From assembly GCA_013423385.1 (NCBI GenBank), contig BLZA01000030.1, positions 558,001 through 622,000 of the forward strand: a stretch of DNA of 64,000 nt, in the 5' to 3' direction. The notes under the pieces are model-generated. The model did no database searches and was not told where the DNA came from. It saw only the letters and a list, made by a program, of their open reading frames with translations. This document shows, in pieces, positions 18,768 to 24,449 of this stretch; position 1 is the first letter of the stretch, and the number at the start of each line of letters is the position of its first letter. The translations under genes were made by a program, and so were the position numbers. The DNA is from Naganishia liquefaciens (lineage: Eukaryota; Basidiomycota; Tremellomycetes; Filobasidiales; Filobasidiaceae).

Positions 18768-21633
18768 TCATTCTTCAATCTCTTCCGGATACCGGGACCG
18801 CGTCTTTTCAATGTCCTCTGCAGATCGGGATTAGTCGAGACAATCGCGCTGTCGACACTACACATACCTTTCAGTGAGTGGTAAACCCATTCGACGGCTT
18901 CCGCAGCCCAGTAGAAATCACAGTGCTATGGCCGCCCGGACGATCAGCTGTGCGGCCGCTGCTCTTGCCAGCGAGACCACTCACCTCGCTCACATCGAGC
19001 TTTTCCACGCGAATCACCTTGACGTCTGTTTCTTTCTGCTCCAGTCTCTCCAATAGAGGCTCAGTCAGCACCAAGTAATCGCGGCCACCATAATAGATGG
19101 ACAGCGGGGGGAATCGGTCATCGAACCATCGGTCGAGCGTATCGTCCAGTGTGCACTTGCGGTGCGCAAACCCGCCCTTGCCGCACCACCAGAATACACT
19201 CGCCGAGCTGACGGGCGTGGGCGTGAAGCGGAACATCTTGGTTTTACGACGATGCAGCCTAAGGAAGGGTCAGCGGATCCTTTGTAAAGGATGAAAGGCC
19301 GTACCAGTTGGCATCGGTCCTAGCGGGAACAGTTGTCAATGCCAAGGAATGCGCGTGCCACCACTGAGGCTCACCAATTAAATCTAGAAGCGGCAAGGCA
19401 TCAATACCATGTCACAAACGGCTGGAAGCTACTCACAAGAACGCAAACATTGTACTATGGGACAGTGCGTCTTGTCAGCAATGTCTCCTCGGTCGCAGGA
19501 GAACTCACTATCCAAGCGTGGCCTGGGTCTATGCATCAGCGCGCATTCGATATATGTCGCAAACCACTCACAAAGACCTTGGCCGGCGCATAATCGTAGC
19601 TATACCGCATCAGCGGAATGAAATCCAGCACACCGAATAGCCGCTTCCACGTGCTCCACTCGATCTTGCCCAGCTGCGCAAAGGGAAACCCGCTCGTCAA
19701 GGGCCCGGCATACACCGCGGGCGCCAGCGCGACAAAGAGGCTCATCTTTTTGCCGAGCGAAGGACACATGCCCAGACTCAAGCTGATAAATGCCAGTCCG
19801 TTGCCCTGAGAGTGCCCGACGAACGCGACTTTATCGTACCCCGTCTCACGGCAGACATGCTCGACGAGCGCCGGCAAATCGTACATGGCCAACTCGCGGA
19901 TCGTCCAGTCCCAAAAGCGCGGGTCCGAGGTGGAAAGGTGCCGATGTCCCATGCCGTAAACGGCGCGCGTATTGCCGAGATAGACCTGGTATCCGCCCTG
20001 GCTAGCGAGCCAAAATGCAAGGGACCTGTCCTCCGATGTAATAAAGCTCCCCGAGGACTGGAAGAGGCCGTGCAAAATCAAGACTGGGAAACCGCCGCGT
20101 CCGTCGGTATGCGGACGGGCACGAGGGTCAATGACGCGATTGACGCGCAGAAAGTAGCCGTCCTCGGTCTCGATCTGCTGATTCTCCATGTCCATGCCGA
20201 CGGCCCGTGCATAATCGCGCGGGTCCTTTGAGACCTTTTCATTGGTGCGCCAGTACTGCTCGTCGTCCCAGGGAAATGTCCGCTTCTTGCGTTGTCCGCG
20301 AAGCATGCGCGGGATCTGGAGCCGAAGGTCTGTCGCAACGGCCCAGAGCACGACGCCAGAGAGGAAGATGGTGGAGACGACGAGCGAGATCGATTGCGAG
20401 ACAAAGAGTTGACATTTGGCCAATAGCGTCATTGGTTTCGGCGAGCGCGGTGCATACGTGCTGAGCGACGGCGGAGGAAATGTCGGGCGCAAGAGGTGTT
20501 GCGTCGGCGACGCGGAGCGGTCGATCAAGACGCGGCGAAGGAGCGAACGTCCAGACGGGTCGGGCGAAGGCTGGCGTGAGCTGGCGCGCGAGGCGGACCC
20601 ATCGTCGGTGACCGCCGCTTCGCCTAGGAGACTTCTCTTGGCCGAGGCGAACGCCATATCCAGCGCCGTTGTCCCTGCGAAATAGTCTATTGATTCCTCA
20701 ACGCGCACGTACGGCACGCCGTCGTCCCGTTTTCCAAACTTTCCGCTGGCCTCGGCGCGAGCGCGTCCGGAAAAGACTTGAAAGTCGGGTGTCATGACAG
20801 ACTCGACGCCGCGGTGCGCGCGAGCCTGTTGGTGGAATGTGTGGGCGTTGGGAAGGCCTGAAGGGGGTGACGTGTTAGCGCGATGCGAAGGGAGGAGCTG
20901 CATGGAATTCTTAAGGGGCATTGGAATTCCGCGTGTTCGGCGCGGACGCCGTTTCGCTAGATGTGCTCTGATCCTGGCGATCGTCTGTTGCACGGACGTT
21001 TCTCTGCGATGCTTTCAATCTCGCTGACCTTTGGGAGAACTGTGGACAGGATCTACGTCTGTGTTGGCGCGCCTCCTGTCCAACGGCGCCTCCTATCCAG
21101 CAGCATCTCCTATCCAATAAGACCTCCTTTCCAGCGACATCTCCTGTCAGCAGCACCTGCTATCCTCGCTGCGCTTGATGAGGGGGATACTCGCTCCGCT
21201 CAACGAGATAGGTATTCTCGCTCCCTGCTGTCGCTCGAGGGCATTCTCGGCCGTCGTAGGACGGCCTCGTACCTGCGGCGCTGAAACTCTCGCTTCGCTC
21301 GAGAGGAATCTCGCTCCCTTCGGTCGCTCGCTCAAGGAGACCGCGCCGTCGTCCGTTCGCTCCTCGGCTCGGCCCAGACTCACCCATTGCCGCCCTGCCC
21401 ACCGCGCCATCCAACGCTTCCTCCCCCTCTAGCGGTGCTCCTTCCCCCGGCCTCATCGTCCGCGCATACTCTCCCGGACTCGGCAAACATTCTCCTCGAT
21501 CCCCTACCCTCTCCACGAGCCCCGCCGCGACCTCGCCCAACTGCTCGAGCAGCGGACGGTTCATCTGTGCGCCCCCGGCCGGCAGCGGGTCGTGTGTCGC
21601 ATCGGGCGACGAGTCGCTGGATGATTCGTGCAT
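18768..21633 (-). CDS. steryl-ester hydrolase / acid-lipase-family alpha/beta hydrolase with four microexons
   Basis: Lipase of the Tgl1/Yeh family, which hydrolyses steryl esters at lipid droplets or the plasma membrane. One hydrophobic anchor (LFVSQSISLVVSTIFLSGVVLWAV) precedes the alpha/beta-hydrolase fold with VLILHGLFQSSGSF, the nucleophile elbow VGHSQGN, the conserved MFRFTPTPVSSAS stretch, the acid region YYGGRDYLV and the histidine HCDFYWA. Exons: 21633-21384, 20857-19572, 19528-19509, 19454-19437, 19383-19375, 19319-19305, 19258-18985, 18925-18868 and 18817-18768. Phases fit throughout, and the microexons restore the expected YTMFAFLFNWTDANWLHRRKT. Exon 1 codes 83 poorly conserved residues and is separated by a 526-bp repeat-bearing intron, so a start in the main exon (about 20921) is the alternative. 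Divergent from REV7. Confidence 0.88.
20858..21383 (-). repeat. 526-bp first intron of the lipase gene, carrying the introner-like repeat (arm A)
   Basis: The donor is GTGAGTC at 21383. The acceptor TTCAG at 20858 is preceded by a good branch site, GCTAAC. From the donor inward the intron holds about 315 bp of GC-rich sequence with GAGCGAAGCGAG-type motifs, a perfect GGCCGTC/GACGGCC hairpin (21249-21266) and a 17-bp tandem array. The remainder is unlike arm B. Exon phase fits on both sides (ATG G then GC CTT). The repeat is homologous, in inverted orientation, to the start of REV7 intron 1. Confidence 0.8.
21065..21165. repeat. tandem array of about six imperfect 17-bp units
   Basis: On the + strand the units read, for example, AACGGCGCCTCCTATCC, AGCAGCATCTCCTATCC and AATAAGACCTCCTTTCC, with boundaries at 21081, 21098, 21115, 21132, 21148 and 21165 (one unit is 16 bp). 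In the lipase transcript this becomes a purine-rich GGATAGGAG repeat near the middle of intron 1. Confidence 0.85.
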
Positions 21634-22048
21634 GGCTGGCGTGTGTGTGCCACTGGCTGGGACGGGCCGTCGCTGTCGCCCTGACCGAGTGGGCGGCGCT
21701 GATCTCTCTGCCTGCTGATGATGGGCTGATGCGGATGCGGATGCGGATGCGGCTGTTTGCTTCCGGCGATCTCGGCATCAATCAATACTCGGCGGGTGGG
21801 GCGTGTTTACTTTGTGCCCTCAATCATCTATTAATTAATTCTACGCTGCGCCGAGCAAAAACAGGAAGAGCGACAAGAAGAGCACCCAGGATCGCCGGAG
21901 CCGGTGACGAGCAGCGAAAGCGCAAGCACACACGGCCATGGAGCAAGACACGACGCAGGATGACGCGTTCACTTTTACCCGTGCGCCTGGAGCAGATTCC
22001 GTGCCGCTGGTTGCTGACTGACTGACACATTCCCGCGGCGCGGCAGAA
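21634..22048. promoter_or_regulatory. shared promoter between the divergent lipase and REV7 genes
   Basis: Only 415 bp separate the two ATGs, so both promoters must lie here or in the first introns. The interval holds a perfect (GATGCG)x4 microsatellite at 21728-21751 and an AT-rich patch (TTAATTAATT) near 21830. It is not part of the mirrored repeat, which starts only inside the introns. Confidence 0.6.
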
Positions 22049-24449
22049 ATGGTGGAAACCATCGCCGATTTTATCGATGTCGCGTTCCATTACATCTTGT
22101 ATCTGCGCGGGGTGTATCCGAGGGATACGTTTCAGAGGAGAAAGGCGTATGGTGTAGGGGTATGGCAGAGTAGGCATCCGGGTGTGAGGGGATATGTGCG
22201 GGGAGTTGTAGAGGCGATAAGGGGGGAAATGCAGAGAGTGAGTCGAGCCGAGGAGCGAAGCGCCGATGGCGAGGTCGCCATGAGCGAGTGACCGAAGGGA
22301 GCGAGAATGCCTGTCTCGTCGAGCGCGAGCGAGGATAGGAGGTGCCGCAGGCGAGGATGAGCGCCGCAGGCAAGGTCTTTGTGAGGCCGTTGTAGGACGG
22401 CCGAGGATTCCCCCGAGCGAAGCGAAAGTGCCTGTCGTCGAGCGAAGCGAAAATACCTGTCGTCGAGCGCAGCGAGGATAGGAGGCGTCGCCAGCAAATA
22501 TCTTGTGCGAGACTGTACGCGACAGGCCAAGAATTGGCATTGCGCTTCTCAAACGAGACAATTGCCACGGGCACAGCATATGCGCGCGGTAGACGCGAAG
22601 GGTTGCGGCCTTGCGGATCTCGGAAAGCACGACAATGTTGTCAGATCACGGATCCGGAAACCGCGCGGGACCACGAGAACGGACGTAACAGGAATCCTCA
22701 AGCTCGTTTCGGGGGTACGAATGCTTTCGCGGAAACTCGTCTTGAAGGCGACTTGACGCTGGGTCATAACGACCGTCAGGAAAGGAGGCATTGCAAGAAC
22801 TTCGAGCGCGGCGGACGACAGTCTCCCGTCGAGCGATGGGGGGCTGGTCATCGTTACAGGCAACGACTCTCTGCGCTGTCCAGAATCGATTCTTGTTGGC
22901 CGACACAACCCAGGCAAGCCTGACGCCGGCGCCTGGGTAATGCATAATGGAGAGCCGCCGAAACCCGATGGATCGGAAGTATGCTGCGAGACGAGATCTC
23001 ATGCCGGTTCGAGCGCCAAATGGATAAACAGTGTCGATGTCGATGGACTCTGGAACAGAATGAGACTAGTCTCTCATCAAGGAAAGCGGGATGAATCTTT
23101 CGGATGTTGGCAGGCCGACGACGGCAAAGCGTTCCACTCATCAGACATGAGGACACACGCTCTGGTTGGGAGTGCTTGTAAGCATCTTTTCGAAGACAGT
23201 GTTCAACAGAACCCGGCAGCCATCGTTCGGGTGATGTAAACCAGAAGACCGAGCGTTACAAGCAACAAATCTGTCCGGCGTTGGGGAGCATGAATTACTC
23301 GTGTCGAGCGGAAAGTCGCTGCAATGCGCCGAGACTCCGTATGCTGTCGCAGGATGGCTGCGAGAAAGCTCCCTCGCTTTGGAAAGATGGAGGCAGCTTC
23401 TTTCGGAATCAGCGGTGTTCAGGGGAAGCCGTCGCAAGCGGTCTGGGGTCGAGGGAGAATCGATCCTCTCCTAGCGCCTTGAAGCTAAAATAAAAGCATG
23501 CACAAGCAGAAGGATGGGATATCATAGGGGCCTCTGAGATGTGTGATCAGGCGCGAGAGGTGCAGACGAAAATCTATTCGCCCATCAGGACATTAACTGA
23601 CGAGATCTTTTATGTGTCGGGGCATAATAGCCATCGTGACTGAGAATGCCCAAGTTTCCGTGAGCTTTCGAAATATAAGTCGTCGCGATGTCCTTGTAGG
23701 GGAACGAAACGGCCTCTTAAGGAATTCTACATTCAAGGGATATTCGCTGACAATCACGCAATATCCCACAGGGCATCCTTCAACGTATAACCCTCATCAT
23801 CAAATCCGCCACGACCAACGCCCCGCTCGAGCGATTCCTCTTCGACATCTCTTATATGGACCTTACGCCTCTGCCGACGGAAGAAGCGCGAGATACGACC
23901 GTCCTCCTCCAGGCGCCTTCGCACCGCGACATCAAGCTGCTTTTCCAGGCGTTCTTAACCAAGCTTTCAGCCCTCGAGACGGGACTCGTCGATAATGATC
24001 CGGATGACGGTGAGTCTCTGCCTCTCCGTTACTGGTATTCAATGCTCATATATGCAGACCTGACCTACGCCGTGGCAATCACCTGTCGTGACGGCACGGA
24101 ACCGGATCTGCGGCCGACGGTAGACTACACATCATACGAGGGCAACCCCTCTACTACGGAAAAACAACCGGTAAGCCTACACTTTCCCTACTTCACTGTT
24201 GTTAACTATATGTTCCCAAATTTGAAGATATACCACCCACCGGAAGGTCCTTCGAATTGGGCGCCGGTCACAACTTCGGACGGTCTTCATCCTTCTCAGT
24301 TCTCTGCTACTCGTCCTGGCAGTGTAATACCCAAGGTGGGGGATAGCCTTCCGAGGAGAGTGGAACAGGTGTTGCCCATCAAAGCGATAGAAACGGGCAT
24401 AGTCGATGTACGCTCTTTTCAATTCGGCGACATCTTGAATCAGCGCTGA
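22049..24449 (+). CDS. REV7: REV7 (MAD2L2-type HORMA protein), DNA polymerase zeta subunit
   Basis: Accessory subunit of the translesion polymerase zeta that bridges Rev3 and Rev1. Exons 22049-22237, 23772-24009, 24058-24170 and 24228-24449 give about 253 aa. Exon 1 encodes the HORMA start, DFIDVAFHYILYLRGVYPRDTFQRRKAYG with QSRHPGVRGYV; exon 2 continues with ITLIIKSATTNAPLERFLFDI and LLFQAFLTKLSALETGLVDN; the C-terminal safety-belt region ends with LPIKAIETGIVDVRSFQ. Matching halves of the HORMA fold on both sides prove that the 1534-bp gap is an intron. Introns 2 and 3 (48 and 57 nt) are multiples of three without stops, so retained forms stay in frame. The ATG at 22049 is the first usable one. 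Confidence 0.88.
22238..23771 (+). repeat. 1534-bp first intron of REV7, with the introner-like repeat (arm B) at its 5' end
   Basis: The donor is GTGAGTC at 22238 and the acceptor CCCACAG ends at 23771. The first roughly 255 bp (to about 22495) match arm A of the lipase intron in the same sense relative to transcription, including GAGCCGAGGAGCGAA and TGAGCGAG-GACCGAAGGGAGCGAGA with equal spacing, a GGCCGTT/GACGGCC hairpin (22385-22402) and GGATAGGAGGCG. The remaining 1.28 kb is unrelated to arm A and holds only short frames with no recognisable protein. It is about 25 times longer than typical introns in the window. Confidence 0.85.

Follow-up and report, generated by a model that had tools for sequence, protein, structure and literature searches.

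In the 64,000-nucleotide (nt) stretch of the Naganishia liquefaciens genome analysed here (the window; contig BLZA01000030.1, positions 558,001 to 622,000), two divergent genes, REV7 and a lipase gene, each carry a repeat array that begins at the 5′ splice site (donor) of an intron. We find that these two arrays belong to a genome-wide family of at least 68 arrays, that the 68 counted all start at a GT, run downstream from it and draw on a common vocabulary of short words, and that the exon ends immediately before them are strongly G-rich. The best explanation, to which we give a probability of roughly 0.4, is that this repeat vocabulary enters existing introns at the 5′ splice site and grows there.

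A genome-wide family of arrays anchored at donors

The first-pass annotation of the window had proposed a candidate introner-like element and a whole-genome search with both array arms as its test. The search space was the 19.4-Mb genome in 28 contigs, queried with both arms and two short words, and it returned many copies inside introns. We count 69 repeat clusters on 25 of the 28 contigs, 32 on the plus strand and 37 on the minus strand; this is a lower bound, since the DNA searches scored the best 40 candidates and the word listing covered 100 of 118 places. Close same-strand matches were merged by hand. The sequence of all 69 clusters was inspected, and 68 are arrays: 27 including the two in the window, 16 from 16 further loci, and 25 more. 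Fifteen of the 16 are known from word patterns alone and have the same appearance as the others. One of 26 clusters in the initial listing, at 3261-3288 of L020, is a downstream tail fragment of the array at that locus and was dropped as a separate cluster. Locus L042 (G000:C23:66278-66297) holds the hairpin word once, with no array, and is excluded from the array count.

The genome contains 118 copies of the word GAGCGRAGCGAGRAYACC and none of the reversed control; GAGGCCGTCGTAGGACGGCC, with up to two mismatches, occurs 95 times (control 0), two near-palindromic places being scored once per strand. As a conserved terminus, the literal start GTGAGTCGAGCCGAGG was considered and rejected, with 31 matches against 20 in its control: the arrays have a vocabulary in common and not one end sequence. 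A leader, CCGAGGAGCG (up to one mismatch), is found no more than 60 nt from the donor in 15/68 arrays, versus none of 43 interior stretches.

Each of the 68 arrays starts at a GT and runs downstream from there, the first 10-mer in common beginning 4-58 nt past the GT (median 19). The donor is GTGAGT or GTGAGC in 61/68 arrays versus 25/72 predicted short introns (p=9e-12), and a stop-free frame spans the 33 codons preceding the donor in all 68. On both strands of 215 kb we count 252 non-array GTGAGY sites, so that a chance site at 60 nt or less would be expected in about 3-4% of cases. Donors were placed by script in 25 arrays (one, L012 minus, shifted 4 nt by eye) and by eye from printed sequence in 41, and the two window donors were taken from the first-pass annotation. 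A non-consensus GT is found in two arrays, L032 minus (GTAGCG) and L056 (GTGCGG). We note that the frame before GTAGCG in L032 minus may end in a stop codon, in which case this array may begin at a gene end and not at a donor. At L015 minus, near position 1730, a GTGAGC site with G-rich sequence upstream is followed by GCGCGAGCGGGC-like sequence and no array; this site is possibly very young or unrelated.

Orientation is similarly constrained: non-palindromic words number 9,071 in the array direction versus 45 in the opposite one. No cluster in the lower-bound list of 69 lies between genes, so that copies mostly outside introns, which the first-pass annotation had named as evidence against its proposal, are not seen. 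Likewise, the arrays do not follow the classical pattern of a dispersed transposon, with copies outside introns and in both orientations to genes.

Arrays are one-ended mosaics that fade inward

Array words are framed by CGAG. They comprise CGAG-CGNAG-CGAG, CGAG-CGACCGNAGGGAG-CGAG and two hairpins with a GTAG loop, with short spacers as linkers. The stems of the two hairpins differ, each being fully complementary: GGCCGTC-GTAG-GACGGCC occurs 30 times in 22 arrays and GCGCGCC-GTAG-GGCGCGC 18 times in 14 arrays. Clear hairpins are confined to such single words and do not extend over whole arrays.

The longest identity between two loci is 51 nt (48 arrays with more than 250 nt compared), and near-identical copies, by which introner-like elements are recognised, were therefore not found. 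Exact repeats inside a single array reach 118 nt, exceeding 51 nt in 10/27 arrays. The difference between these two limits indicates that local tandem duplication and the sharing of short pieces both operate.

Words cover 0.8% of the 100 nt upstream of the donor, 69% of the first 100-nt bin downstream of it and 80% of the second, and by 1 kb past the donor coverage has fallen to about 1% (27 arrays). Together with the GT start, this profile bears out the earlier statement that similarity begins at the 5′ splice boundary. In 14 introns, the tail between array and acceptor is more array-like in sense than in antisense (p=0.0015), and this likeness weakens inward (p=0.0004). At the other end the introns have nothing of the kind in common: among the 105 pairs formed by 15 introns, 72 match in the first 150 nt and none in the last 150 nt, so that similarity does not reach the 3′ splice boundary. 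No common 3′ terminus is thus available to define terminal inverted repeats or target-site duplications such as mark introners of the DNA transposon type. The 3′ intron ends are ordinary, with branch points and pyrimidine-rich tracts.

Exon ends next to arrays are G-rich

The last 100 nt before array donors are G-rich and C-poor, with a mean GC skew of +0.595 versus about +0.09 in controls. The skew exceeds 0.4 in 59/68 arrays and 0.6 in 38/68. Among controls, a skew above 0.4 is seen in 4/72 codon-filtered introns, 2/50 introns without an upstream filter and 21/252 non-array GTGAGY sites; only two of the latter 252 exceed 0.6, and one of them lies within the L022 array itself. The first controls were filtered by codon score, with a possible bias against G-rich exons, and the rerun on the 50 introns and 252 sites agreed with them. 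The skew climbs toward the donor, being about -0.2 at -260 and reaching +0.69 at -40.

In the 26 arrays with an assigned frame, for which reading phases were chosen by hand from open frames, four-fold sites hold 69% G, 12% C and 5% T (versus 33%, 38% and 15%), and two-fold pyrimidine sites hold 15% C (versus 50%). The same exon ends encode less Pro, His, Thr and Ile and more Gly, Val, Arg, Glu and Trp. As a separate observation, the extreme G bias touches all codon positions of the exon ends before the 68 arrays, those of the window included. Quadruplex motifs with G3+ runs occur in 18/68 array exon ends and in 0/72 controls. Across the intron, the downstream exon is C-rich in 15/15 cases (mean skew -0.295 versus -0.096). 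Exon skew shows a positive correlation with the length of the array (rho 0.45, p=0.017, n=27) and with that of the intron (rho 0.56, p=0.03, n=15). From these signatures, the skew and the quadruplex motifs, array junctions are predicted to be R-loop-prone.

Two array introns have short counterparts at the same positions

Spliced models were built for 15 array introns, RNA excision being predicted from protein models. In 5/15, each a distinct gene family, a Pfam domain across the exon join confirms the model: REV7, NDUFA12, Ras/Rho, Utp11 and diphosphomevalonate decarboxylase. For the other 10/15, the models rest on frame, branch point and what we take to be the protein families; gene names such as P5CR, Rac, NOP56, RPN1 and HIBCH are likewise our assumption from the sequence. 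The 15 introns have a median length of 1,154 nt; the median of 59 nt in control introns is bounded by construction, as these were sought only at 42-109 nt.

Two sites could be compared for intron creation, and in each the array-less counterpart holds an ordinary intron. The Rho gene has a 1,329-nt array intron at K|WYPEI; at the same position a Rho-family paralogue in the same genome, which we presume to be Rac-like, has a 57-nt intron and no array, and the exon skew is -0.23 in the array-less and +0.62 in the array-bearing copy. P5CR has a 76-nt intron here, with no array and an exon skew of +0.08, and the database protein P0017 carries a P5CR exon (77% identical) followed by an array. These short introns at the same positions argue that arrays lengthen existing introns.

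P0017 is one of a set of nameless or 'hypothetical' database proteins from metagenome contigs (P0011-P0021) that look like array translations. In P0020 an NDUFA12 exon gives way to an array at the residue where it does so here (WVDYRQ versus WVDYSQ). The antisense reading of P0019 terminates in the UTP11 exon of L014, and its array meets that exon at the border seen in L014. A second search with array peptides found nothing beyond P0015, which was already known. These comparisons suggest that arrays differ between relatives at existing introns. Some of P0011-P0021 apparently start at the donor GTG.

The REV7 and lipase genes in the window

The window locus comprises the following features.

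19536-20857, minus strand: lipase exon 2 open frame (Abhydro_lipase), from open frame and domain match; its 3′ border is putative.
20858-21383, minus strand: lipase intron, 526 nt, with predicted acceptor; CTAAC branch point, TTCAG at 20858-20862.
21060-21383, minus strand: lipase intron repeat array, from arm alignments.
21378-21383, minus strand: lipase-gene 5′ splice site GTGAGT, from the sequence.
21384-21633, minus strand: lipase-gene exon 1, start codon inferred; skew of the last 100 nt (21384-21483) +0.46.
21634-22048, no strand: divergent intergenic region, 415 bp; neither arm matches inside it.
22049-22237, plus strand: REV7 (HORMA) exon 1, from a HORMA match; the last 100 nt (22138-22237) are G-rich, GC skew +0.71.
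22238-22243, plus strand: REV7 5′ splice site GTGAGT, which is the array start, from the sequence; GTGAGY is found in 61/68 arrays.
22238-22495, plus strand: REV7 intron repeat array, recognisable part, with leader GAGCCGAGGAGCGAA at 22245-22259 and words after it.
22383-22402, plus strand: hairpin word GAGGCCGTTGTAGGACGGCC in the REV7 array, at G000:C17:580383-580402 in contig coordinates, one mismatch from the genome-wide word.
22496-23771, plus strand: remainder of the 1,534-nt REV7 intron, without a clear array; ordinary branch point CTGAC (23747-23751) and CAG acceptor.
23772-24449, plus strand: REV7 exon 2 open frame, C-rich at its start (skew -0.47).

The two arms form an ungapped inverted repeat of 86 nt (21309-21394 and 22221-22306) that is 79% complementary, and align at 67% identity over 252 columns (E ~4e-22). 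The motifs listed earlier for both arms, GAGCCGAGGAGCGAA, a 21-nt spacing, TGAGCGAG(C/T)GACCGAAGGGAGCGAGA and GGATAGGAGGCG, are all present in the window sequence. The accompanying statement that both introns open with the same sequence holds for these motifs, but the left arm has six added bases (TGGGCC) between GTGAGTC and GAGCC. The exon borders had also been described as fixed by protein families. We find support for this in REV7, in which the HORMA score rises from 27.5 bits for exon 1 alone to 42.3 bits when spliced (exon 2 alone gives no HORMA match in the domain search, and the nearest named match of the protein is from Naganishia albida, at 52%). The lipase exon 1, however, contains none of the domains tested, and its donor was placed by the open frame and the array.

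What had been described as a mirror image is simply two genes that point away from each other, the donor of each being followed by a separate array. Among the 69 clusters we find five divergent pairs and no convergent pair within 2.5 kb; tandem pairs are masked by the same-strand merging. Because five divergent pairs exist, the hairpin-mediated duplication once suggested for the window pair is unnecessary.

Arrays are enriched near contig ends

On large contigs, 18/51 clusters lie within 50 kb of an end (10.8% expected), and on all contigs of known length 21/62 are near ends (12.9% expected). Array density on contigs of known length is 16.5 per Mb for small contigs versus 3.4 per Mb. Contigs C10, C13, C14, C20, C24 and C25 are examples of this contig-end and small-contig enrichment.

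Proposed donor-edge growth and its alternatives

The anatomy described above is read directly from the genome, and from it we infer the mechanism. Under donor-edge growth, words would enter already existing introns at the 5′ splice site, usually bringing their own GTGAGT or GTGAGC donor. New words and local tandem duplications would then be added beside the donor, older words would be displaced inward and decay, and an intron of about 60-80 nt would lengthen to 0.5-1.9 kb as its 3′ end stays ordinary. Words may be transferred in fragments no longer than about 50 nt, either through template switching primed by microhomology or through gene conversion, with GTGAGT and GAGCG together as the putative homology. 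The exon-intron junctions would be fragile during transcription, with the G-rich non-template strand of the exon end favouring R-loops and G-quadruplexes, and since splicing conceals the added sequence, insertions on the intron side would survive. Template switching or gene conversion at R-loop-prone junctions appears the likeliest route, as it would explain the short common pieces, the G-rich ends, the contig-end excess and the five divergent pairs together. More tentatively, and with somewhat less confidence than we place in growth at the donor as such, we propose that introns grow in a tape-like manner, a self-propagating vocabulary gaining words only at the donor and ageing inward, and that the same process drives the adjacent exon toward G and away from C, altering codon and amino-acid use.

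Several results weigh against donor-edge growth. Inside recognisable arrays, mismatches per 13-nt unit show no significant rise with distance (11/25 arrays positive). The 45 opposite-direction words are spread over 13/68 arrays, and P0019, from a 900-bp metagenome contig, joins words of both orientations in one frame, by inversion or by an assembly fold-back. The absence of intergenic clusters among the 69 is left unexplained by a DNA-only mechanism alone, as insertion there should be tolerated too. Both array-less comparisons are unpolarised, that is, they fit array gain or array loss. Finally, a stable RNA fold was sought in the first 250 nt of 27 arrays and rejected, the folds being no stronger than those of shuffles (mean z -0.5).

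This last result also counts against a functional splicing module. On that view, a long intron close to the start of a gene depends on a strong donor, with a G-rich exonic enhancer upstream of it and a repeat downstream; selection would hold these parts near the splice site, gene conversion would spread the vocabulary, and the decay would be set by how far a word lies from the donor and not by how old it is. Strong donors and decay from the donor agree with such a module, as does the exonic G-richness, which extends to four-fold sites, and the composition of the exon ends flanking array introns would allow them to pair (-53 versus -39 kcal/mol). A specific pairing of the two exons over the intron nevertheless found no clear support, matched ends pairing hardly better than mismatched ones (mean rank 11.7, 14 expected), and the array-less introns at the same positions in the Rho-family paralogue and P5CR look normal. 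We consider the module unlikely, if the more probable of the two live rivals to donor-edge growth. The other, which we rate a step lower, is RNA-mediated spread, in which reverse splicing or reverse transcription of array-bearing intron RNA gives rise to a copy that recombines at further 5′ splice sites. It would account for the position of all 68 arrays downstream of a donor and for the lack of intergenic clusters among the 69, and fungal introners have been interpreted likewise (PMC9860276). Reverse splicing moves whole introns, however, whereas here the 3′ part of the intron is not common and loci share at most 51 nt.

Creation of these introns by a classical introner or introner-like element is no longer a live rival for the features tested, and we regard it as highly improbable. 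The first-pass proposal holds as to a genome-wide, intronic family with an edge at the 5′ splice site, and dispersal over different genes fits it too. Intron creation is not supported: similarity is one-ended, the arrays are mosaics and not near-identical copies, and at neither of the two positions compared is the array-less counterpart without an intron, an ordinary one being present in each case. As to what came first at the exon, we give about even odds to the view that G-rich exon ends predate the arrays, ends that are G-rich by chance forming R-loops and attracting arrays; this view is compatible with donor-edge growth. With the tens of thousands of introns in this class of fungi, a small fraction of exon ends should be highly skewed. 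The rise of the skew toward the donor and with intron length, on the other hand, fits an acquired bias as well.

Relation to known systems and significance

Introners resemble the arrays in being similar sequences scattered among introns, with an edge where splicing occurs, and some introner families carry their own 5′ splice site, as the survey by Gozashti et al. (2022; PMC9860276) describes. Here, in contrast, only the 5′ end is common and existing introns are lengthened. To be counted in that survey, similarity must lie near each of the two intron ends, and likeness confined to an intron subportion is set aside, so that the present family would probably have been filtered out. The introner-like elements of Dothideomycetes (PMC4457414) are likewise fungal, spliceosomal and found in many genes, whereas the arrays here are mosaics with at most 51 nt in common. 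Since two defining features of introners were tested and neither was found, we set the array family apart from introners; it could, cautiously, be filed as a one-ended relative of them.

Intronic minisatellites also show local tandem duplication inside single introns, but here one vocabulary recurs across 68 introns on 25/28 contigs, at the donor. Immunoglobulin switch regions offer an architectural likeness, being G-rich transcribed repeats downstream of a splice donor and R-loop-prone; the analogy is purely architectural and implies neither a deaminase nor programmed rearrangement here. Niu (2007; PMC1863416) connects introns, structured intron RNA and R-loop avoidance in a hypothesis paper whose abstract does not mention repeat arrays at donors. 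Our literature search, with most subscription papers and preprints outside its scope, found no account of one-ended donor-anchored arrays or of a linked exon bias.

The family touches on how introns lengthen and on what a mobile sequence can do at a splice site. It provides 68 natural replicates of introns with common sequence at one defined edge, in which decay can be read as distance, and it connects that edge with a strong bias in the composition of coding sequence, which extends to housekeeping genes. Since one-ended families are probably set aside by survey criteria, similar systems may be common and unseen. The arrays also offer a way to test whether intron growth is driven by R-loops at exon-intron junctions. 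If the tape-like process does operate, long introns would be records of ongoing donor-anchored growth, and not of intron gain or random insertion.
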